Source: Streptococcus porcinus
GTDB lineage: Bacteria > Bacillota > Bacilli > Lactobacillales > Streptococcaceae
NCBI RefSeq assembly: GCF_901542335.1
Contig: NZ_LR594036.1
Coordinates: forward strand, 930,001 to 994,000
DNA: 64,000 bases
Reading direction: 5' to 3'
Below are positions 2,202 to 12,877 of the stretch, in pieces. How positions within the stretch are numbered: the stretch's first letter is position 1; every line of letters begins with the position of its first letter. The position numbers and the translations under genes were made by a program. The notes under the pieces were generated by a model, which had not been told where the DNA came from, did no database searches, and saw nothing but the letters and a program-made list of their open reading frames with translations.

Positions 2202-2747
2202 GAATATATTTGTAATAAATGGAGGTAAGTACTTGAAACAGGATATGAAAGAACAACTACTAACCAAAAGGCCGATAGACTTACTCTTTCAGCTATCAGT
2301 TCCGGCGGTAATCGGAATGATAGTCATCGGTCTATATCCCTTGATGGATGGGATTTTTGCCGGAAAAATTATAGGACAAACAGCAATGACCGCTTGTGGT
2401 GTTGCAATGCCCCTCACCTTTTTTAACAGCGGTGTTTCAACCTTGCTTGGTGTAGGTTCTGCGTCTGTCCTATCACGAGCCATTGGAAAAGGGGATCAGA
2501 AAACTGTAGATAAAATTATGGGTAACTTAATCTTTTGGGTGATTTTGTTCTCTGCTATCATCACAGTCGGAGGAATCCTCCTCGCACCACACTTTTTAGA
2601 TATGGTCGGTGCAACAGGTGAAATTAAAGCCTATGGTATCAGATACCTTAGAGTGATTTTTATAGGTTCTCTATTTGTGAACTTTACACAGTCTGCCAAT
2701 ATGGTGATGCGTGGCGAAGGACTGATGAAAAAAGCCATGTTGATTAT

Positions 2748-2751
2748 GTAC
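2748..2751. repeat. Target-site duplication GTAC, left copy
   Basis: GTAC directly precedes the left end of the IS and is repeated at 4154-4157 just after the right end. Keeping one copy restores the MATE reading frame exactly, which confirms the IS borders. Confidence 0.92.
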
Positions 2752-2778
2752 TGACCCCCAAAAGTTAGACATTATATT

Positions 2779-3593
2779 TTAAGCAAAGGATTTAGTTCTG
2801 TATTGTACGGGACTAAGTCCTTTTAGTTTTACTTTGATCCGTTTATTGTTGTAATAATCAATATATTTTTTAATAGCTTTTTCTAAATCTCCCAGAGATT
2901 TATAGTAGCTCTCATAGCCATAGAACATTTCTGACTTTAATATGCCAAAGAAGGATTCCATTATCCCATTGTCAGGGCTGTTTCCTTTACGTGACATAGA
3001 TGGACGGATACCTTTAGAGTTTAAAAAGTGATGATAATAGTTGTGCTGATACTGCCAGCCTTGATCACTATGTAAAATAGTTCCGTTATAGTATTTATCT
3101 GGAAATGTCTTTTCTAGCATCGTTTTAATTTGGTTTAAGTTAGGAGAACGTGAAATGGTATAGTTTATTATCTCGCTATTATAACCATCAAGAACTGGTG
3201 ATAAATAGAGTTTTCCCTCAGGTAAAGCAAATTCAGTCACATCGGTGTAACACTTCTCAAAAGGTTTAGAGGCTTCAAAATGGCGTTGAATAAGGTTATC
3301 TGCTTTCTTTCCAACCTCACCCTTATAAGATGAATAGCGTCTTTTGCGACGTATTCTCGCTGTTAAACCTAGTTCTTTCATCAAGCGCTGAACTCTTTTG
3401 TGGTTGATGATAAAACCTCTGTTACGCAGTTCCAAAGTGATTCGACGATAGCCATAGTTACCTTTTGAATTTGGTTTTTAATGGACTTGTCTAAATCATC
3501 TTGTTCTAGTTGCTTAAGATGATAGTAATAGGTTGAACGAGCTAATTGAGCTGCTCTTAGAAGTAAACCTAATCTAAATCCTCCATCAACCAT
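2779..3593 (-). pseudogene. IS3-family transposase OrfB, frameshifted
   Basis: The DDE integrase part is split into two frames, 3381-3593 and 2779-3435. The catalytic residues remain visible in the second piece: D in YTDVTEF, D in LHSDQGWQ, and E in NGIMESFFG. Around base 3460 the first frame reads IKNQIQ and then leaves the family sequence, while KGNYGYRRITLELRN continues in another frame. About six linker residues expected there also seem to be missing, so a small deletion rather than a single-base slip is likely. The product should be inactive. Confidence 0.85.
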
Positions 3594-4120
3594 TTCTTTA
3601 ATGATTTCTGTCGTTCTTTCTCGATAGCTTCGTCCCGTTCTTCTAACTCTTTTAACTTTTTTAGGAAGGCGTTCTCCGTTCTGAGATATTCGTTCTCTTC
3701 CTGAAGGCGCTCTAATTCAGTCATTTCTTCCCAAGTTTTCTTTGGTTTACGTCCCATTTTTGCTGGTCTCCCTTTTGTTGTCTCAACAATAGTATAACCA
3801 TTTTTCTTGTATTGCGCTATCCAATTGGCAAGAGTTCCTGGATTTGGGAAGGCGTAATCTAGAGAAACTGACATTAAGGATTGCCCATCTTTCAAGACTT
3901 TATTAATCATTTCTTGCTTCATTTCAGGTGAATAAGCTTGGTACTTTTGCTTCTTAACGATCTCAACTCCATAACGATCCATCAGTCGAATGGTATATTT
4001 TAAGTTGCAGCGGGTTACTCCAAATTGAATCTCTAATTGAGTCCAGGAAACACCTGACTTCTTTAAACGATAAATTTCTAATTTATCTTCATAACTTAAT
4101 TTCATACAAAAACACCCCAA
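3569..4120 (-). CDS. IS3-family transposase OrfA (helix-turn-helix protein)
   Basis: This 183-residue protein holds two helix-turn-helix regions (about residues 5-50 and 65-110) and a C-terminal leucine-rich coiled coil (about 130-175, with [20 protein letters not shown]). That is the normal layout of an IS150-group OrfA, which binds the IS ends. Its 3' end overlaps the orfB frame by about 25 bases; in this family a ribosomal frameshift there normally makes the OrfAB transposase. The frame itself is intact. Confidence 0.9.
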
Positions 4121-4153
4121 ATGTTAGATTTTTTGTCCAACTTTTGGGGTGCA

Positions 4154-4157
4154 GTAC
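4154..4157. repeat. Target-site duplication GTAC, right copy
   Basis: This is the second copy of the 4-bp duplication made on IS insertion; the partner is at 2748-2751. Confidence 0.92.
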
Positions 4158-5081
4158 ATTATGGGTTTTGGTGCTTTGCTTAATATCATACTTGATCCGA
4201 TACTAATGACCGTTATGGGTGAATATGCTATTGAAGGTGCTGCACTTGCAACGATCACAGCCCAATTTGTTCAAGCTACTGTAACACTACATTATTTCTT
4301 GAAAAAGAGTAAGGTCGTTAAAATTCATAAGATACAATCTGATGCGGAAATTAAAAAAGAAATGTTTTCTGTCGGTTCATCCGCTATGATGATGCAGCTC
4401 TTATTTATGATACAACAAACAATGCTTTATAAAATGGCATTTAAGTATGGGGGAGATCCAAACGGAATTTTAATGGCAGCATCACTTCGTGTATATGCCT
4501 TTTCGTTTATCCCACTTTGGGGAATGAGCCAAGGATTACAACCTATTGTTGGAACTAACTTCGGAGCAAAACAGTATGACAGAGTAAGACAGGCTATGAA
4601 GGTGTTTTCTATCGGAGGACTGGTTCTCGCAGCAATCTTTTGGGTTCCAGCCTTATTGCTTTCAAGTCAAATACTATCTTTGTTCGGTGTAGAAGCAAAT
4701 ATTATTGCACAAGGTGTCGGAAACTTTAGATTGTTCTATTCCGTATTTATCCTGTATGGAGTAATGGTTATGACGATTACTTTCTTTCAATCTATTGGAA
4801 ATGGAAAGAAAGCAGGAATTATTGTTATGCTTAGACAACTGTTCCTATTTGTTCCTGCAATGATCATTTTACCAATGGCATTTGGAGTCAAAGCAGTTTG
4901 GTTCACACAGCCTCTTGTATATTTCATTATGATTGTTGTTGGATTTATTATGATGATAAATACAGTAAAGAATCTAGAAAATGTAAATTTAAAGTAAAAG
5001 TAATGCTTTGTAGGATTAAAATTTCTAATAGCTAATTTTTAAGGAGGCACATTTAATATGTATTGAGAATGAGGAGCATAT

Positions 5082-5270: not shown

Positions 5271-5314
5271 ATGCTTAAAAATCAAAATTTAGAGTAAAAA
5301 AGGAGGACTAAAGG

Positions 5315-5716
5315 ATGTCAAACAAAGAAAAATACATTTATGTCAAGGGGAAAAAGATATATGTACCTGACGAAGTGTATAGAACATATAAAAAAGAGCT
5401 TAATCATGAGGCTCATTTAAAAAGATTGGATAGAAAGCATGGTGTACTTCATTTTGGAGACTTTAACACAAGTATTGTAGATATTGCAGATAATACTGTT
5501 GATGTTGAAAAAATCATTGAAACAAAAATGCTGATAGAAGATCTGTATCATGCATTAGACAGTTTGAATGATGAAGAGAGAAAACTAATTGAAGCATTAT
5601 ATTTTGAGGATAAGACTCTCGCAGAAGTTGCAAAAAGGGAAGATACAAATCCAATGAAAATCAGTAGATTAAGAAATAAGATTTTAGAAAAGCTGAGAAA
5701 ACTTTTGGATAAGTAA
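5315..5716 (+). CDS. Small sigma-70-like helix-turn-helix protein
   Basis: This is a 133-residue protein with an excellent ribosome site (AAAGGAGGA) before ATG 5315. Its C-terminal half (about 75-130) resembles sigma-70 region 4: LNDEERKLIEALYFEDKTL, then a helix-turn-helix reading LAEVAKREDTNPMKISRLR. Proteins of this size and type, like Orf7 of Tn916, sit just before the excision/integration genes of Gram-positive conjugative elements and are thought to take part in their control. Its place 1 kb ahead of the recombinases fits that role. Whether it acts as a true sigma factor is unknown. Confidence 0.75.
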   Translation: MSNKEKYIYVKGKKIYVPDEVYRTYKKELNHEAHLKRLDRKHGVLHFGDFNTSIVDIADNTVDVEKIIETKMLIEDLYHALDSLNDEERKLIEALYFEDKTLAEVAKREDTNPMKISRLRNKILEKLRKLLDK

Positions 5717-5722
5717 ATTAAG

Positions 5723-5758
5723 TAGAGGGCAGGGGAAACATCTCTGTCCTCTATTTTT
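5723..5758 (+). terminator. Terminator after the sigma-like gene
   Basis: TAGAGG and CAG at 5723-5732 pair with CTG and CCTCTA at 5744-5753, followed by TTTTT. It closes the sigma-like transcription unit six bases after its stop codon. Confidence 0.85.
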
Positions 5759-5849
5759 GAAAATTTTTCAAAAATAGTGTTAAAAGTTGTCCTGAAAGTA
5801 AGGTTTATATATAGAGGGAGTTTTATACCTCGTTATATATAGATTTGAT

Positions 5850-6120
5850 CTTTGACAACTAGATAGACCAAGACAAGACGTTAACTGGTAATGGAGCAAT
5901 TTACAATTTACGCCAAGATAAACCTGCTAAGTTAAATTGGTTTAAATGAATACCTACATTTGTAGAGGATATAAGGTTTGGAGCGATAAATAAGTCTGTA
6001 TAAAAAGAGTGTGGCAACTCTTGTGCGATGATATTAACGGGGATAATGATACTTCTACAGTTGAAGCCGGCTCATCTTGAAAAGGGGCGGAGGTGAAATT
6101 CCTATGTAGCAGCCAATGCA
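5850..6120 (+). ncRNA. Candidate structured RNA or long leader upstream of the recombinases
   Basis: Between the terminator at 5758 and the 55-residue gene at 6171 there is no convincing reading frame, yet several paired segments can be seen. AAACCT 5920-5925 can pair with AGGTTT 5974-5979 around a CTAC/GTAG hairpin (5954-5965). AAGAGT 6005-6010 pairs with ACTCTT 6017-6022. TTAACT 5881-5886 can pair with AGTTAA 5930-5935. The G-rich segment GGGGCGGAGGTGAAATTCC (about 6084-6102) recalls, from memory, segments seen before recombinase genes in clostridial elements. It may be a regulatory leader, a trans-acting RNA or recombination-related DNA. No named RNA family is claimed. Confidence 0.4.
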
Positions 6121-6170
6121 CTTGTCAATGTCATAAAACTTAAAAATACTGAAGATAAGGAGAAGATATT

Positions 6171-6338
6171 ATGTGTGAAGAACATAATATAGATATTAAG
6201 ATGGAAATAGATAAAAAAGATAAACAGACAATAAATCAAATTGATGGTTGGAGTGTGGTAATTAAATTTAATGAAAATGGATTTAGCTTAGAAAATTTAG
6301 TAGAGGAATACATCAAAGAAAAATTTTCTGTCTATTAG
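6171..6338 (+). CDS. Small element protein, 55 residues (possibly TnpW-like)
   Basis: ATG 6171 follows ATAAGGAGA at a good distance and opens a 55-codon frame ending at TAG 6336-6338. The protein is acidic and lysine-rich at first, then reads INQIDGWSVVIKFNENGF and ends in a short helix-like part (LENLVEEYIKEKF). A small protein of similar size and layout (TnpW) accompanies large serine recombinases in Tn4451-type elements, and the strand-then-helix pattern is loosely alike. The similarity is weak and judged by eye. Its position about 100 bases ahead of the first recombinase supports a role in the same module. Confidence 0.55.
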   Translation: MCEEHNIDIKMEIDKKDKQTINQIDGWSVVIKFNENGFSLENLVEEYIKEKFSVY

Positions 6339-6436
6339 GGGCTGACAAAAAATATAAGGAGCGTTATAATATTTTTGTGGAAGCCTAGCCTTGGTTCGAT
6401 TTATTGTATGTAAATTGAATTTAAGGAGGCTTTTTT

Positions 6437-8155
6437 GTGTTTAAAAATAGTGTAGATAAAGAAAATATTGCAGTTATGTATTTGAGGCTTTCAAAAGAAG
6501 ATGGAGAAAAAGTAGAAAGTAATTCCATATCAAATCAAAGAGAAATTATAAATTCATATGTAAAAAGAAATCAAATTACAATGGTCAAAGAGTATGTTGA
6601 TGACGGATATTCAGGAGCGAATTTTGATAGACCGAATTTTAAAGAAATGATAAAGGATGCTTATGATAAGAAATTTGATACCATTATTGTAAAAGACCTG
6701 TCAAGATTTGGAAGAGATTATATAGAAGCTGGAAAGTTTATACAAAGAATATTTCCGGAAAACGGGATAAGATTTATATCCGTTAATGACAATTATGATA
6801 GTAAAAGTGCGGATATGAATGACACACATTTAATACTGCCTATAAAAAATTTTATCAACGACAGCTATTGCCTAGACATTTCTAATAAGGTAAAAAGCTC
6901 CCAGAAGATAAAAAGAGAAAAAGGTGATTTTATTAGTGCTTTTGCACCTTATGGATATAAAAAATCTGATGAGAATAAAAATAAGTTGGTGGTTGATGAA
7001 CAAGCTGCTCCTAACATCAAAAATATATTCGATATGAAGCTATTGGGATATTCTTCAAAGGCAATTGCAGATGAGTTAAATCACTTAGGTGTTCTAACTC
7101 CAAGAAAATATAAAGAAAGTCAAGGCTTTAAGTGTAATGGATTTCAAAATATAAAAGGTGGAAATTGGTCAGCGAAGGCAGTAAACAGAATTATAGAAAA
7201 TGAAGTATATATTGGAAACACCTTACAGGGAAAGAGTATTACCTTAAACTATAAAAATAAAAAGCAAATTGGAAAAGATAAAGAAGAATGGATAAGGGTA
7301 GAAGATACCCACGAAGCAATCGTAAGTAAGGAAGTTTTTGCTATTGCAAATACAATGCTTAAAAGAGATTTAAACAACTCTCGTGGTAAGGATAAAATTG
7401 ATATTTTTACCGGGATGCTGTTTTGTAAAGAATGTGGAAGTTCTTTGATTAGAAGAACTGTAAAGTATAAAGAAAGAGAAGAAGTTTTCTATATATGCTC
7501 AAAGTATAACAAGGAAAAATCTTGCAAAAGACACAGCATAAAGGAAGAAACCTTGATAAAAGCAGTGTCTAAAATAATAAAATCATATATTGAATTTAAC
7601 GAAAAGCTATATTCCAAAGTTCGGCTTATAGATATAAATAGAAATCTGAAAGACAAACAGATTCCTATATTAAAACGAGAAAAAGCTATGACAGAAGAAC
7701 TCTTATCTTCCCTTTACCTTGATTTAAAAGAGGATGTGATTAGTAAAGAAGAATATCACCTTTTTAGAAAAAACTATATGGAAAAACTCACTAAGCTAGA
7801 TGAAAGTATCCAGTATAGATTAAGAAAACAAGAAGATACAAAGGATAAAATAGATGAAAATAAGAGCTGGATCATTGATATTAACAGATATAAAAATTTA
7901 TCTGAAATAGACAGGCTATCTGTTGTGATGCTCATTGATAAAATTTTTATTTCTGAAGATAAGACGATAGATGTCAGGTTTAATCATACCGAAGAGCTAT
8001 CTTTACTTGAGGAAATGACAAAAGCGGGCAAGACCAAATTTAAGAATAATATTATAGCAAAGAAAAGTATTTCTACAAACGGAAAGTCAAAAGCTATACC
8101 TGTTGCTATGAATAAAAGTCTTGTAAGTGCTGAAAGTGAGGTATGTTATGGCTAG
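6437..8155 (+). CDS. Large serine recombinase 1 of 3
   Basis: This 572-residue recombinase starts at GTG 6437 behind AAGGAGG. The N-terminal catalytic domain (about 10-155) has the active serine in YLRLS, plus VDDGYSGANFDRP and KDLSRFGRDY. A recombinase domain (about 160-290, with FAPYGYKK) follows, then a zinc ribbon with CKECG and a second Cys pair (CSKYNKEKSC), then a long coiled coil. Such enzymes cut and join att sites to integrate or excise an element. Its end overlaps the next recombinase gene by 8 bases. All catalytic features look intact. Confidence 0.92.
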   Translation: MFKNSVDKENIAVMYLRLSKEDGEKVESNSISNQREIINSYVKRNQITMVKEYVDDGYSGANFDRPNFKEMIKDAYDKKFDTIIVKDLSRFGRDYIEAGKFIQRIFPENGIRFISVNDNYDSKSADMNDTHLILPIKNFINDSYCLDISNKVKSSQKIKREKGDFISAFAPYGYKKSDENKNKLVVDEQAAPNIKNIFDMKLLGYSSKAIADELNHLGVLTPRKYKESQGFKCNGFQNIKGGNWSAKAVNRIIENEVYIGNTLQGKSITLNYKNKKQIGKDKEEWIRVEDTHEAIVSKEVFAIANTMLKRDLNNSRGKDKIDIFTGMLFCKECGSSLIRRTVKYKEREEVFYICSKYNKEKSCKRHSIKEETLIKAVSKIIKSYIEFNEKLYSKVRLIDINRNLKDKQIPILKREKAMTEELLSSLYLDLKEDVISKEEYHLFRKNYMEKLTKLDESIQYRLRKQEDTKDKIDENKSWIIDINRYKNLSEIDRLSVVMLIDKIFISEDKTIDVRFNHTEELSLLEEMTKAGKTKFKNNIIAKKSISTNGKSKAIPVAMNKSLVSAESEVCYG

Positions 8156-9899
8156 AACGAAAAATAGACATAAATCACAATCAGAAATAAATACAGAAAA
8201 TATAAAAATAGTTGAAAAAACATATATTGCCGGTGTTTATACACGACTATCACAAGAAAGAAAAGAAGATTATAGGGATAAAAGCAATTCACTTGAAATG
8301 CAGGAAGAACTTTGTGTAAAAGAAGCAAATGAAAAAGATATAAAAGTTTTTAGAATATATAAAGATTATGAGTATTCCGGAACAAACTTTAAAAGACCAG
8401 CTTTTCTTGAAATGATGGAAGATATAAGGATAGGGAGAATAAATTGTATCATCGTAAAAGATATGTCTAGGTTTGGAAGAGAATATTTAGAAATTGCGAA
8501 TTATATAGAAAAAGTATTTCCGTTCTTAGGGGTTAGATTTATTTCTGTAAATGACAATCTTGATACAAAAAACGGTATAAAATCGGATAAGAGTTATGAA
8601 ATAGCAATCAAAAATATCTTCAATGACTTGTATGCTAAAGATATTTCAAAGAAAGTAAAAGCCTCAAAAGAAGTAAAAATGAAACAAGGAGCCTTTATAG
8701 GAGCTACTGCTCCGTATGGCTATAAGGTAGAAAAAATAGACGGAAAAAGAGTTTTGGTGGTTGATAAAAAGGTAGCAGAAGTAGTAAGGCTTATATTTCA
8801 TTTAGCTGGTCAAGGCAAATCTAATATACAAATAGCAAGAGAATTGACAAGTATATACACTACACCTGCTGAATACAAAAGAACAGGAGAGCCTTACAAA
8901 AATAAACCGGATACAAGACAATGGGATCCTTCTTATCTATCAAAAATTCTTTCTGACGAAGTGTATATTGGAAATTTAACTCAAAGGGTATATTCAAACA
9001 GATATGATTCGGGTAGAAAAAGTAAATTTCGTGATAAAGAAGAATGGATAAGGGTAGAAGATACCCATGAAGCACTGGTTGAAAAAGATTTATTTGAAAG
9101 GGTAAGAATACTTAAAGAAAAAAATAAAGGTTCATTACCTTATCGTTCATTAAAAAATACCATAAAAGATGGTAAAGAAAATATAGGTTTAAAAATCCAA
9201 AGAGACCGAAACAGAGAAGGAAAGTATGATGGTCTCATAATTTGTGGTATATGCGGTAGAGATTTACAAAAACAATATGGTTCAAGGAGGCTCAAGTCTA
9301 ATGATGAAGTTTGTTATTGCTATTACTGTAAAGGTGGTGATAAATTAAAATTAGAAAAATCTCATATCAGAATTTATGAAACGGATATCGATAAAATTTT
9401 CGTTGATACCTTAAAAAGATTATTTTCAAGTTTTTATCAAGAGGATAAAGGATTATATCTTAAAAATTATTTGGAGAAGGCAAGCAATGAAAAAATAAAG
9501 CAAGTTTCTTTGAAAATAGATACTGATAGAAAGAAGATTGATGCTCTTAGAGTTAAGCTACAGAAAGAATATGAAAGCTATGTTAGAGGAGATGTTCTTT
9601 TAAGGAAATTTAAAGCAGAAAGTAATAAAATAGATAGACAGATAAAAACGATTAAAAATGAATTAAAGGTAGTAGACGATAAAAAGAGGAACATAAAGAG
9701 AAGAAAAGATGAAATCAAAAAATTCATAGAAGCTCTATTTTACTGTTTGGAGGATTACAAGAGTATAGAGGTGGATAAAGAACTGGTTGATACCTTAATT
9801 AACCGTATAGAAATCTCAAAATACAAGCAAGTAACTATATACTTTAAATTTAGTTTTGATAAAGATATAGAAAAGCAGTTGGAGGTAGAGCATGAATAG
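8148..9899 (+). CDS. Large serine recombinase 2 of 3
   Basis: I place the start at ATG 8148 (MARTKNRHK), preceded by GTGAGG and overlapping the stop of recombinase 1; an in-frame GTG lies at 8127. The product is 583 residues. The active serine is in YTRLS; KDMSRFGREY and APYGYKVE mark the catalytic and recombinase domains. Two Cys pairs (CGICG, CYYC) form the zinc ribbon, followed by a lysine-rich coiled coil. It shares a 35-base identical block with recombinase 1. It overlaps the next gene by 8 bases, so the three are translationally coupled. Confidence 0.92.
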   Translation: MARTKNRHKSQSEINTENIKIVEKTYIAGVYTRLSQERKEDYRDKSNSLEMQEELCVKEANEKDIKVFRIYKDYEYSGTNFKRPAFLEMMEDIRIGRINCIIVKDMSRFGREYLEIANYIEKVFPFLGVRFISVNDNLDTKNGIKSDKSYEIAIKNIFNDLYAKDISKKVKASKEVKMKQGAFIGATAPYGYKVEKIDGKRVLVVDKKVAEVVRLIFHLAGQGKSNIQIARELTSIYTTPAEYKRTGEPYKNKPDTRQWDPSYLSKILSDEVYIGNLTQRVYSNRYDSGRKSKFRDKEEWIRVEDTHEALVEKDLFERVRILKEKNKGSLPYRSLKNTIKDGKENIGLKIQRDRNREGKYDGLIICGICGRDLQKQYGSRRLKSNDEVCYCYYCKGGDKLKLEKSHIRIYETDIDKIFVDTLKRLFSSFYQEDKGLYLKNYLEKASNEKIKQVSLKIDTDRKKIDALRVKLQKEYESYVRGDVLLRKFKAESNKIDRQIKTIKNELKVVDDKKRNIKRRKDEIKKFIEALFYCLEDYKSIEVDKELVDTLINRIEISKYKQVTIYFKFSFDKDIEKQLEVEHE

Positions 9900-11412
9900 A
9901 ATAGCCATTTATTTAAGACTTTCAGAAGAAGATTATAAAAAAAAGGATGAGAGTGTAAGTATAGTAAATCAGAGAGACTATATAAGAAATTACATTGAAA
10001 ACGAGAACTCTCTGAAGGATTGTGAGATAGAAGAATATATAGATGATGGCTTTTCTGCTACAAATACAAACAGACCTTCGTTTTTAAGACTTATTGATAA
10101 TATAAAAGCCGGGAGAATAAATACGATAATTGTAAAGGATATGTCGAGATTTTCAAGAGATTATATATTGCTTGGAGACTATCTGAGTAATATATTTCCA
10201 TTTTTGAAAATACGGTTTATTGCTATCAATGACAACTACGATTCTATAAATGAAGATGGAAATGGGATAGATACAGATATACAGTTTAAGACATTGTACT
10301 ATGATTTGTTCAGTAAGGAATTATCGGAAAAAGTAAAAAGTTCTTTTAAACAACTTAAATCACAGGGGAAAAATACTAATTGGGCAGCACCTTTTGGATA
10401 CATAAAAGATCCAAAAGACAAATATCATATTATACCTGATGAAAAGACAGCTTTTATAGTTAAAGAAGCTTTTGACTTGCTGTTAGAGGGATATTCTTGC
10501 AATCAGGTAGCAAATATATTCAATGAAAAAGATTATATAACCTGTTCTGAAAGAAAAGAAGAACTAAAAATTTCAAAGTACACAAGAAATCTTGTTACTG
10601 GCAGTAAAATAAATAAAAGAGTTTGGACAAGTGCGGCTATATCCAGAATAACGAGTAATGAATTATATACAGGAGATTATGTATATAATAAATATAAAGA
10701 TACAAGGATTGGTGGAAGAAAAAGTATATTACTTCCTGAAGAAGAATGGAAGGTAATTCTTAATACTCATGAAGCGATTGTTTCTAGAGAAGTTTTTGAT
10801 AAAGTAGGGATAATAAAGAAAAAAAGAATTTTCGGGGGATACACAAAAAACAGAGAAGAATCTATTTTTTCTGACAAGATTTTTTGTAAAGAATGCGGTA
10901 GACATATGGGATTTAGATGTGATAGTAGGCAAAAGAAAAATCCAAATAAAGTGTATAAATATAGAAATTACTATTGTTATTTCTGTAAAGCTAGTAGAAC
11001 TCCCAACAATGTCAAAGAAAGAGACATTATAGAGTTGATAAGACCAAAATTAGATGAATTTAAGTCCCAAAATACAGAAAAAGAAGAAAGCATAATAGAT
11101 TATGAAAAAAGAAAGGAAGAGTATTTAAAAGAAATATCTGAATTAAATAGTAACCTGCAAATAATCTATGAGAATTACAAGAAAAACAGTATTTCAAAAG
11201 AAGAATATTTACGAAAAAAAATACTTGTTCAAGACAAAAAGAAGTTACTGGAAAACAAGATAAGAGAATTAGAAAATATAGAAGATGATTCCAAGAAAGA
11301 ACTGGATATTAATAACTTAGATGAAGATAATTTGTTGAAAATATATGTAGATAATATAATTGATAAAATAATTGCATCAAGAACTGGAGAAATAGAGATT
11401 ATAGAGAAATAG
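9892..11412 (+). CDS. Large serine recombinase 3 of 3
   Basis: This 506-residue recombinase begins at ATG 9892 behind GGAGGTAGAGC. The active serine lies in YLRLS near the N-terminus, followed by KDMSRFSRDY, a recombinase domain (APFGYIKD), a zinc ribbon (CKECG and CYFC), and a C-terminal coiled coil. It is the gene nearest the element boundary; its stop is only about 40 bases from the chromosomal ABC-F sequence. Whether one, two or all three recombinases are needed for integration and excision cannot be read from the sequence. Confidence 0.92.
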   Translation: MNRIAIYLRLSEEDYKKKDESVSIVNQRDYIRNYIENENSLKDCEIEEYIDDGFSATNTNRPSFLRLIDNIKAGRINTIIVKDMSRFSRDYILLGDYLSNIFPFLKIRFIAINDNYDSINEDGNGIDTDIQFKTLYYDLFSKELSEKVKSSFKQLKSQGKNTNWAAPFGYIKDPKDKYHIIPDEKTAFIVKEAFDLLLEGYSCNQVANIFNEKDYITCSERKEELKISKYTRNLVTGSKINKRVWTSAAISRITSNELYTGDYVYNKYKDTRIGGRKSILLPEEEWKVILNTHEAIVSREVFDKVGIIKKKRIFGGYTKNREESIFSDKIFCKECGRHMGFRCDSRQKKNPNKVYKYRNYYCYFCKASRTPNNVKERDIIELIRPKLDEFKSQNTEKEESIIDYEKRKEEYLKEISELNSNLQIIYENYKKNSISKEEYLRKKILVQDKKKLLENKIRELENIEDDSKKELDINNLDEDNLLKIYVDNIIDKIIASRTGEIEIIEK

Positions 11413-11455
11413 ATAATTCAGGAAATTCTATATCAATTGCTTGACATTGTAGGGG
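11413..11455. other. Element-chromosome junction (att site)
   Basis: After the third recombinase stop (11410-11412) about 40 non-coding bases lead into the ABC-F frame. Coding for the ABC-F protein resumes with GGG AAA TCA ACC at 11453-11464, the G-K-S-T of Walker A; the codon before it would be TAG, so the crossover lies at about 11,451-11,455. Serine recombinases usually exchange at a two-base core; GG or GA in AGGGGAAA are candidates. The matching other half should sit at the far end of the element. Confidence 0.75.
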
Positions 11456-12877
11456 AAATCAACCTTTATGAGCATTGTTACCGGTCATTTACAACCCGAT
11501 GAAGGAAAGGTTGAATGGTCTAAATATGTCACAGCAGGTTACTTAGATCAGCACACGGTCTTAGAAGCAGGACAAACCGTTCGTGATGTTCTAAGAACAG
11601 CTTTTGATGAGTTGTTTAAAACTGAAGCCCGTATTAATGATATCTACTTATCAATGGCTGAAGAAGGAGCTGATGTCGACGGTCTTATGGAAGAAGTCGG
11701 TGAATTGCAAGATCGTCTGGAGTCACGAGATTTCTATACACTGGACGCAAAGATTGATGAGGTAGCAAGAGCTCTAGGGGTTATGGATTTTGGCATGGAG
11801 TCTGATGTGACAGAATTATCTGGAGGCCAGAGGACAAAAATTCTGCTAGCAAAGCTATTACTTGAAAAGCCAGATATTTTACTGTTGGATGAACCAACAA
11901 ACTATCTTGACGCAGAGCATATCGAATGGCTTAAACGTTACCTTCAAAATTATGAAAATGCCTTTGTTCTTATTTCACATGACATTCCATTTCTTAATGA
12001 GGTTATTAATATTGTCTACCACGTTGAAAATCAGAATCTGGTAAGGTATTCGGGCGACTATTATCAGTTCAAAGAGATTCATGAAATGAAAAAGGCACAA
12101 TTAGAGGCTGCCTATGAACGTCAACAAAAAGAAATTGCTGATTTACAAGACTTTGTTAACCGTAATAAGGCGCGTGTTGCTACTCGCAATATGGCTATGT
12201 CTAGACAGAAAAAATTGGATAAAATGGACATTATTGAGTTGCAGGTTGAGAAACCTAAACCAAACTTTGAGTTTAAAGAATCTCGCACTCCTAGTCGCTA
12301 TATTTTTCAAGCAAAAGAATTGGTTATTGGCTATGATCGCCCTCTAACAAAAAATCCTTTAACTCTTAATTTTGAACGAAATCAAAAAATTGCTATCATA
12401 GGTGCGAATGGTATTGGTAAATCTACACTATTAAAGAGTTTATTGGGTATCATCAAGCCGTTAGCAGGGCAAGTGGAGCGTGGTGATTTTATTGAATTAG
12501 GTTATTTTGAACAAGAAGTTTCAGGAGTAAATCGTCAAACACCATTAGAAGCAGTTTGGGATGCTTTCCCAGCTTTAAATCAAGCAGAAGTAAGAGCAGC
12601 ACTTGCACGTTGCGGCTTAACTTCAAAACATATTGAAAGTCAGATTCAGCTTTTATCCGGAGGAGAACAAGCTAAGGTGCGCTTTTGTCTTCTCATGAAT
12701 CGAGAAAATAATGTTTTGGTATTGGATGAGCCAACTAACCATTTAGACGTTGATGCTAAAGCTGAACTAAAAAGAGCTTTGCAAGCCTACAAGGGATCTA
12801 TCTTAATGGTATGTCACGAACCTGATTTTTATCAAGGTTGGGTAACGGATATTTGGGATTTCAACCAACTAACCTAA
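11453..12877 (+). pseudogene. ABC-F family ATPase, 5' end removed by the element
   Basis: About 474 residues of a two-domain ABC-F protein (family length about 540) remain. The first ATPase domain keeps only KST of Walker A, then LSGGQRTK and LLLDEPTNYLDAEH. The linker and second domain are complete (GANGIGKST, LLSGGEQAK, LVLDEPTNHLD). It looks like the EttA/YbiT-type translation factor group of Firmicutes, not a membrane transporter. An ATG at 11468 could start a 469-residue product, but its first nucleotide site would lack the phosphate-binding loop. Excision of the element would restore the gene. Confidence 0.85.

Follow-up and report, generated by a model that had tools for sequence, protein, structure and literature searches.

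A serine recombinase triplet in a Streptococcus porcinus integrative element, with a predicted promoter at the circle joint and predicted antisense pairing to the recombinase leader

Results

The window analyzed here, a stretch of 64,000 nucleotides from Streptococcus porcinus (contig NZ_LR594036.1, positions 930,001 to 994,000), carries at positions 5850–11455 what is best explained as the right-end integration module of an integrative and conjugative element (ICE) of about 87.5 kb (G000:C1 853,968–941,452, G000 being the genome of the window). The module consists of a leader matching the Rfam pemK RNA, a small open reading frame (ORF) and three large serine recombinase genes lying side by side on the plus strand, Internal (6437–8155, 572 aa), Middle (8148–9899) and External (9892–11412, 506 aa), and is a further member of the known serine-integrase triplet kind. 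For Middle the ATG at 8148 was adopted as the start, in place of the GTG at 8127 chosen by the ORF caller. Each protein contains both a Resolvase (PF00239) and a Recombinase (PF07508) domain. As a preliminary description of this DNA had proposed, the Internal and Middle as well as the Middle and External ORFs share 8 bases each, and the External stop codon lies 40 bases from the element end. The active serine and the arginine-rich motif that it had attributed to each enzyme were also found in all three proteins, as YxRLS and SRxxR, which we take to be the catalytic-serine and arginine motifs. Its zinc ribbons fared less uniformly, as the assignment stands for Internal (PF13408, 50.9 bits) and falls below the Pfam cut-off of 25.3 for Middle (23.0) and External (20.1), despite the Cys pairs that are visible in both of these proteins.

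The right boundary of the element falls within a G run (11452–11455, plus strand) that contains the crossover dinucleotide GG, its exact place within the run not being fixed. Beyond this boundary lies the 3′ portion of a gene for an ABC-F ATPase (11455–12877, plus strand), whose 5′ part is at G000:C1:853,834–853,968, outside the window, with the left element end at about 853,968. Read from sequence, the cut falls in the Walker A codons, and in 11 of 12 same-genus relatives a gene 86–91% identical to the split 3′ part has a longer open frame. At attL, GGTGAAGGGG is followed across the boundary by ACAATGCTATAATG, and at attR CTTGACATTGTAGGGG is followed by AAATC, the short direct repeat AGGGG being common to both ends. 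A disrupted protein gene and short direct repeats of 2–8 bp are features of triplet modules, and both are present here.

Co-inheritance of the three recombinases

Related loci were collected by scanning named genomes with the External-protein alignment, and the best 80 of 253 were taken. They were assigned by closest reference to a window type, a Tn1806-like type (reference Streptococcus anginosus J4206), a Nudix type (with Nudix-gene targets) and a second-triplet type, named after a second triplet in the genome of the window; one Tn1806-like match (L392) was excluded from every count. The preliminary description had asked whether the three genes are always found together and in this order: by best match, they were together in the usual Internal-Middle-External order in 54 of the 80 loci, another 8 read Internal-Internal-External with a divergent Middle, and the remaining 18 were incomplete, at contig ends or with extra genes. 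Every full-length call of the window, Tn1806-like and Nudix types carried YxR[LVI]S and SRxxR, with the exception of L190, whose Middle ORF starts late. Among second-triplet calls, the serine motif was missing in 3/29 Internal proteins and SRxxR in 2/29, and SRxxR was missing in 1/17 External proteins within the searched stretch; the cases listed comprise calls that start late or are extended (L248, L269, L253), besides an additional ORF in which no N-terminus was recognizable (L260). The CxxC pair was not found among Middle proteins of two other families (0/22 Tn1806-like, 0/9 Nudix).

In a 64-row maximum-likelihood tree, a single branch set each of the three positions apart from the rest, and a pairing of the Nudix with the Tn1806-like type, the window type standing outside the pair, was repeated within the Internal, Middle and External clades, which gives a mirrored topology. 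Clade support was 100/100 for Internal, 92/80 for External and 64/94 for Middle in a tree that carries long-branch warnings, and Internal stems were shorter than those of Middle and External (for the window type 0.47, 1.02 and 1.13, respectively). Moreover, in clostridial modules with a pemK RNA, all 5 middle proteins scanned had a Recombinase domain and a zinc ribbon without a Resolvase domain, a domain that the two neighbors scanned do have. Clostridial modules of this build, a short non-catalytic recombinase between two large serine recombinases, were seen at L105, L109, L104, L099 and L128.

The gene order, the mirrored clades, the retained catalytic motifs and the clostridial middle-protein modules support the view that the three recombinases belong together and are inherited as one unit. 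A relative with a single recombinase that still moves, the case that the preliminary description had set against this view, was not encountered: ICESe2 of Streptococcus equi has one recombinase of 284 aa and no detectable circle, with the caveat that this single gene is itself truncated (PMC3672683; here and below, statements on publications cited by accession apply to the accessible part of their text). The mirrored phylogenies and the natural variant with a non-catalytic middle protein argue for joint action of the three enzymes, and the evidence at hand does not separate the two forms suggested at the outset, a mixed complex or a split of integration and excision.

A predicted promoter at the circle joint

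The right end carries TTGACA just before the crossover (11441–11446, plus strand), and the left end carries TATAAT (G000:C1:853,978, outside the window). Joining of the ends would bring the two hexamers together as a promoter of the form TTGACA-17-TATAAT in the window type, with a TG ahead of the -10 that presumably makes it an extended -10, and as TTGACA-17-CATAAT in the Tn1806-like and Nudix types, the 17-bp spacing counting the host G run of the empty site. Among loci with External scores over 500, the right-end TTGACA was present in 21/21 of the window, 17/23 of the Tn1806-like, 10/10 of the Nudix and 2/4 of the second-triplet type, and it was also found in 8/8 streptococcal triplets inspected, several of these sample sets overlapping. 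Left ends of the window type were matched in 22/22 genomes, with the -10 motif in 23 of 24 left-end loci, and those of the Tn1806-like type in 22/23 genomes, with the motif in 25 of 30 loci; in the Nudix type the motif was found at 10 places, hand-picked from pattern hits. When 58 integrated left ends were compared with the best host hexamer at a spacing of 16–18, this matched the -35 at none of its 6 positions in 1 case, at one in 28, at two in 26, at three in 2 and at four in 1. The predicted joint promoter of the window element is directed into a left-end ParA-family gene and not into the recombinases, so that the Tn4451-type layout, in which the promoter reportedly reads straight into the recombinase gene, is not the one found here. 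Following the -10, left ends of the window type have a stem that changes on both sides, from GATGATAG/CTATCATC to GATGACAG/CTGTCATC, and then a T run, possibly a terminator like T1 of Tn916.

The one exact pattern hit in another genome, at L372, was considered as a left end of the second-triplet type and rejected, there being no such end at that place.

Complementarity between the joint RNA and the recombinase leader

Transcription of the recombinase genes is predicted to start from a promoter with CTGACA and TATAAT 17 bp apart (6342–6370, plus strand). The Shine-Dalgarno sequence of the Internal gene (6423–6429) lies in a predicted hairpin (6379–6434, plus strand) with a minimum free energy of -22.5, a z of -4.7 and a Shine-Dalgarno pairing of 0.96. 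Across four families, 30 distinct leaders from 52 loci were predicted to form such a hairpin, with z from -1.2 to -5.8 and mean Shine-Dalgarno pairing of 0.58–1.0. The set was restricted to leaders whose Internal protein scored above 500 bits, to which the window leader and three second-triplet leaders were added, placed by hand.

The predicted joint RNA matches the 5′ arm and loop of this hairpin in antisense and leaves the Shine-Dalgarno arm free. In the window the complementarity involves a foot patch of 14 bases (6373–6386, plus strand) and a loop-side patch of 10 bases (6399–6408, plus strand). The complementary patches read UACAAUAAAU and AGGCUUCCACAAAA in the window type, GGCAAAUAGUCA and CUUCUACCA in the Tn1806-like type and AGGUGCUUA and GUUCUAC in the Nudix type; in all three, the order of the patches is alike antiparallel, and the letters differ with the pairing kept. 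Against dinucleotide-shuffled joint RNA, 32 distinct same-genome pairs gave a mean z of -3.8 (11 of the window type), -4.5 (12 Tn1806-like) and -4.3 (9 Nudix), with at most 6 of 200 shuffles reaching the real duplex, many of these sequences being close relatives and the real sample size being three families. The best-pairing left end was used in genomes with several, and the left-end set was without L289 (no end motif), L308, L311, L323, L328 and L329 (none recognized) and L321 (too short). Family mean duplex energies, from a table that included a few weakly assigned leaders and in a calculation that disregards the folding of each RNA on its own, were -35.6, -39.1 and -38.1 kcal/mol for cognate and, with one exception given below, -21.6 to -28.1 for non-cognate combinations. 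Compared with other windows of the same element, the recombinase leader was the top partner in 4 of 5 elements, where 0 of 1054, 677, 426 and 428 windows equaled it. By these comparisons, the complementarity to the leader appears to go beyond chance and to have been kept between the three families.

A leader of the canT type

The 55-residue ORF and the RNA-like leader that had been read from the letters of this DNA are both present. The leader starts with a motif (5850–5862, plus strand) that we take to be boxA-like, and its core is the pemK RNA (RF02913, 6043–6107, plus strand), matched beyond chance with 60.9 bits (gathering threshold 34.8) and an E-value of 1.7e-8. It ends in a Shine-Dalgarno-like GGAGGTGA followed by the start-stop pair ATG TAG (6089–6109, plus strand). 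The same ending, a possible start-stop ORF, is shared by the three pemK copies of this genome that belong to serine recombinases (window, L029, L030). All 4 pemK RNAs of the genome sit 5′ of a recombinase or integrase module.

The pemK RNA was detected in 141 of 284 Streptococcus genomes and in 26 of 398 genomes sampled across the phylum, both figures including the genome of the window. Loci were fetched for 40 places of the phylum sample outside this genome and for 40 among the genus matches listed, most of the near-identical 55-bit ones being skipped; together with the four own copies they make 84. In 82 of these an ORF of 230 aa or more begins within 2.3 kb, and L130 and L131 run into contig ends. 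The first such ORF contained a Resolvase domain in 44 loci and a Phage_integrase domain in 34. In the other loci it was a serine-recombinase fragment (L140) or a shorter tyrosine-integrase fragment followed by unrelated genes (L165, L168), and at L122 ParA-family and ParB-like genes follow the RNA, the sequence read there containing no integrase. The boxA-like motif was found 5′ of 65 of the 82 pemK RNAs, compared with 2.85 in shuffles. A covariance model built from 28 pemK copies has just 3 base pairs, behaves in effect like a model of sequence and served for counts only. It matched once each in 53 loci of the 80 with triplets, and 50 of these matches fell among the 54 loci of the window, Tn1806-like and Nudix types. 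MazF/PemK-like genes, recognized by eye within the clostridial recombinase modules L100, L104 and L132, are a possible source of the Rfam name.

In a Tn916-like locus (L116), the pemK RNA lies at nt 283–383, counted from the stop of the ORF that we take to be orf8, inside the interval 126–577 of canT, and in 2 of 3 Tn916-like loci inspected an antisense 83-aa ORF overlaps it. This interval is that of a published cis antiterminator, canT, in which deletion of 229–390 abolishes antitermination and which is overlapped in Tn916 by the 83-codon orf5 (PMC11658703). The leader in the window likewise contains the canT core and is located at the right end, with regulator genes on one side and integration genes on the other. 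Because it shares both the RNA family and the place, we infer that it is a canT-type antiterminator, and a likely job for the Rfam pemK RNA is to form the core of such integration-module leaders.

Neighboring features and targets

The 55-aa ORF (6171–6338, plus strand) matched no Pfam or NCBIfam family, and its place makes it a candidate for a recombination directionality factor or a regulator; by eye, small ORFs whose C-terminus looks similar were recognized in other triplet types. Upstream of the leader is a gene for a sigma-70 region-4-like protein of 133 aa (5315–5716, plus strand; PF04545, 39.5 bits). The stretch 5300–11460 had no near match in plasmid or phage collections.

From its translations, the element carries a nonribosomal peptide synthetase (NRPS) cluster resembling that of equibactin or yersiniabactin, transporters and conjugation-type genes. 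The equibactin-like cluster (L034/L033) is at G000:C1 about 904,800–925,100 and has, by eye, an apparent DtxR-type regulator. A MATE efflux gene of the element (window 2233–4997) is split by a minus-strand insertion sequence (2779–4120), at one end of which lies a match to the Rfam MOSES4 RNA (3943–4119, plus strand). Elsewhere in the genome are the second triplet (593,007–597,909), a single serine recombinase (613,649) and a tyrosine integrase (1,058,583, minus strand). From the External gene to the element end there are 1050 bp in most relatives of the window type and 40 bp in the window (11412–11452), and L191 has in this interval, after its position 10521, a gene for a 275-aa protein that looks KilA-N-like by eye. 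Genome G054 has a left end nearly identical (98%) to that of the window element together with a truncated Internal gene, and presumably carries ICESe2. Reading of the split sites gave the Walker A codons as the target of the window type, mostly methyltransferase motif I for the Tn1806-like type, and the Nudix box or its vicinity for the Nudix type, target names beyond that of the window being by-eye readings of the split sequences.

Discussion

We propose the following course of events. The three recombinases would act at the GG inside a conserved stretch of a target gene, here the Walker A codons, and the canT-type leader RNA would let the polymerase pass terminators. In the integrated state, recombinase mRNA would be made from its own promoter and yield little enzyme, because the ribosome site would be sealed in the predicted hairpin. 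On excision, the right-end -35 would meet the left-end -10 in a presumably strong promoter, whose RNA would pair in the cell with the 5′ arm and loop of the hairpin. As the arm opposite the Shine-Dalgarno sequence is the one covered and the Shine-Dalgarno arm is left free, the predicted effect is opening: more recombinase would be made and circles would re-integrate. In the circle, the canT-type leader would moreover lie 5′ of the left-end genes, and transcription would pass the terminator there. On the conservation and complementarity described above, we lean towards the view that a promoter is put together upon excision and that its RNA enhances recombinase translation and favors re-integration. 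The wider account is offered more tentatively, with chances a little short of even: a self-sensing element in which a split promoter, complete only in the circle, makes an RNA that opens in trans the ribosome-site hairpin on the triplet mRNA, reports the excised state and drives re-integration, in a design kept in at least three families across Bacillota.

Several observations weigh against this proposal. The right-end TTGACA was missing in 6/23 Tn1806-like and 2/4 second-triplet loci within the stretch scanned, and was not recognized in 20 lower-scoring loci with an External call. No left end was found for the Nudix element in G277, nor for the second triplet of the window genome, sought by eye and by a pattern that gave 88 hits against 61 in a reversed control; because these second-triplet left ends were not found, that family stands outside the joint comparison, and its pemK count is low as well (3/26). 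Several Tn1806-like leaders have hairpins with z of merely -1.2 to -1.7, and 7 of 1331 other windows in S. anginosus J4206 paired equally well or better. The Nudix joint RNA reached -33.9 kcal/mol with Tn1806-like leaders, and the duplex energies, as said, leave out self-folding; alone, the joint RNA folded no better than shuffles (z 0.06). Finally, the complementary patches are also inverted repeats at the DNA level, both near recombinase-related regions, and may be protein sites.

This last point leads to a different explanation, that the patches are DNA sites, whether operators or accessory ones, for binding of a recombinase or the small-ORF product; they would be present in the promoter region of the recombinases as well as at the left end, and RNA pairing would be a by-product. 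Binding near ends is indeed a property of recombinases and directionality factors; nevertheless, two or three patches in fixed antiparallel order fall within the 5′ arm and loop of the Shine-Dalgarno hairpin, and their letters differ in three families, whereas constant letters would be expected of a protein site, so that we regard DNA sites as unlikely. Many antisense RNAs repress, and the same complementarity could serve a joint RNA whose pairing leads to cleavage of the leader or a block of its translation, circles then making less recombinase and staying out for transfer. Such repression we consider rather unlikely, as the pairing covers the arm opposite the Shine-Dalgarno sequence and leaves the latter's own arm free.

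The left-end -10 and T-run hairpin might instead serve solely as an insulating terminator and remnant of an end palindrome, in the manner of T1 of Tn916, and the joint promoter might be without a role in recombinase control. The window type does have a terminator-like stem 3′ of the left end, and Tn916 combines a left-end terminator with an antiterminator that acts after excision (PMC11658703), but the exact TTGACA and TATAAT/CATAAT at 17 bp in three families and the antisense match to the recombinase leader speak against this explanation, which we consider improbable. It is less probable still that a single recombinase is the working enzyme and the remaining pair is redundant or acts at other sites. 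Excision of the gin element proceeds without girAB and needs only GirC with GirX, but its three genes are not in one operon (PMC5595907), and the mirrored phylogenies and the catalytic motifs kept at all three positions speak against a single worker in the triplets.

The excision-dependent activation proposed here touches two open questions, namely why some elements keep three serine recombinases and how an ICE, once excised, can detect that it has left the chromosome. To the second the module offers a compact, testable answer, and it sharpens the first. Moreover, the DNA chosen by triplet elements codes for protein motifs of wide occurrence (Walker A, methyltransferase motif I, Nudix box), and such motif-coding targets are a lead for site-specific integration enzymes. 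The gene triplet itself is known; the circle-assembled promoter with antisense RNA and the link between pemK and canT were new to our searches, in that no title describing an antisense joint RNA or such a link was found in the open-licence literature searched.

Comparison with known systems

A promoter made by end joining of a large-serine-recombinase element has a precedent in Tn4451/Tn4453, in which, as reportedly described by Lyras and Rood in 2000, the joined ends make a promoter that drives the TnpX recombinase gene directly. The predicted joint promoter of the window element differs in that it is directed away from the recombinase genes and would yield a trans-acting RNA. In ICEKp1, integrase expression likewise differs between the integrated and the excised state and favors integration, and stem-loops occur in the int 5′ untranslated region, whereas the excised form uses a 3′-end promoter whose activity is maintained on joining and which is not split between the ends, and both the gene set and the integrase context are different (PMC13023037). 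With Tn916 the window element shares a leader before right-end integration genes, a pemK RNA, which there lies inside canT, and a left-end terminator-like stem; Tn916, however, has a tyrosine integrase with Xis (PMC11658703), and antitermination by the window leader is a prediction.

ICESe2 resembles the window element in its equibactin-type NRPS cargo and its right-end recombination module, but the window element keeps all three recombinase genes open (PMC3672683). A close likeness is that to the serine-integrase triplets of streptococcal ICEs, published in 2016 with their position-specific clades, 2–8 bp repeats and insertion into genes, together with the idea of an ancestral three-gene module (Ambroset 2016, PMC4701971), and to the Tn1806-like ICEs with triple serine integrases, which circularize and transfer (PMC12942858). 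Three tandem serine integrases, External, Middle and Internal clades, orientation, very short repeats and insertion into protein genes are common to those triplets and the one in the window, whereas a joint promoter, an antisense RNA, a sealed leader and a pemK RNA are not described in the accessible text of either report (PMC4701971, PMC12942858). To the known targets of such triplets, Walker A codons are added here.

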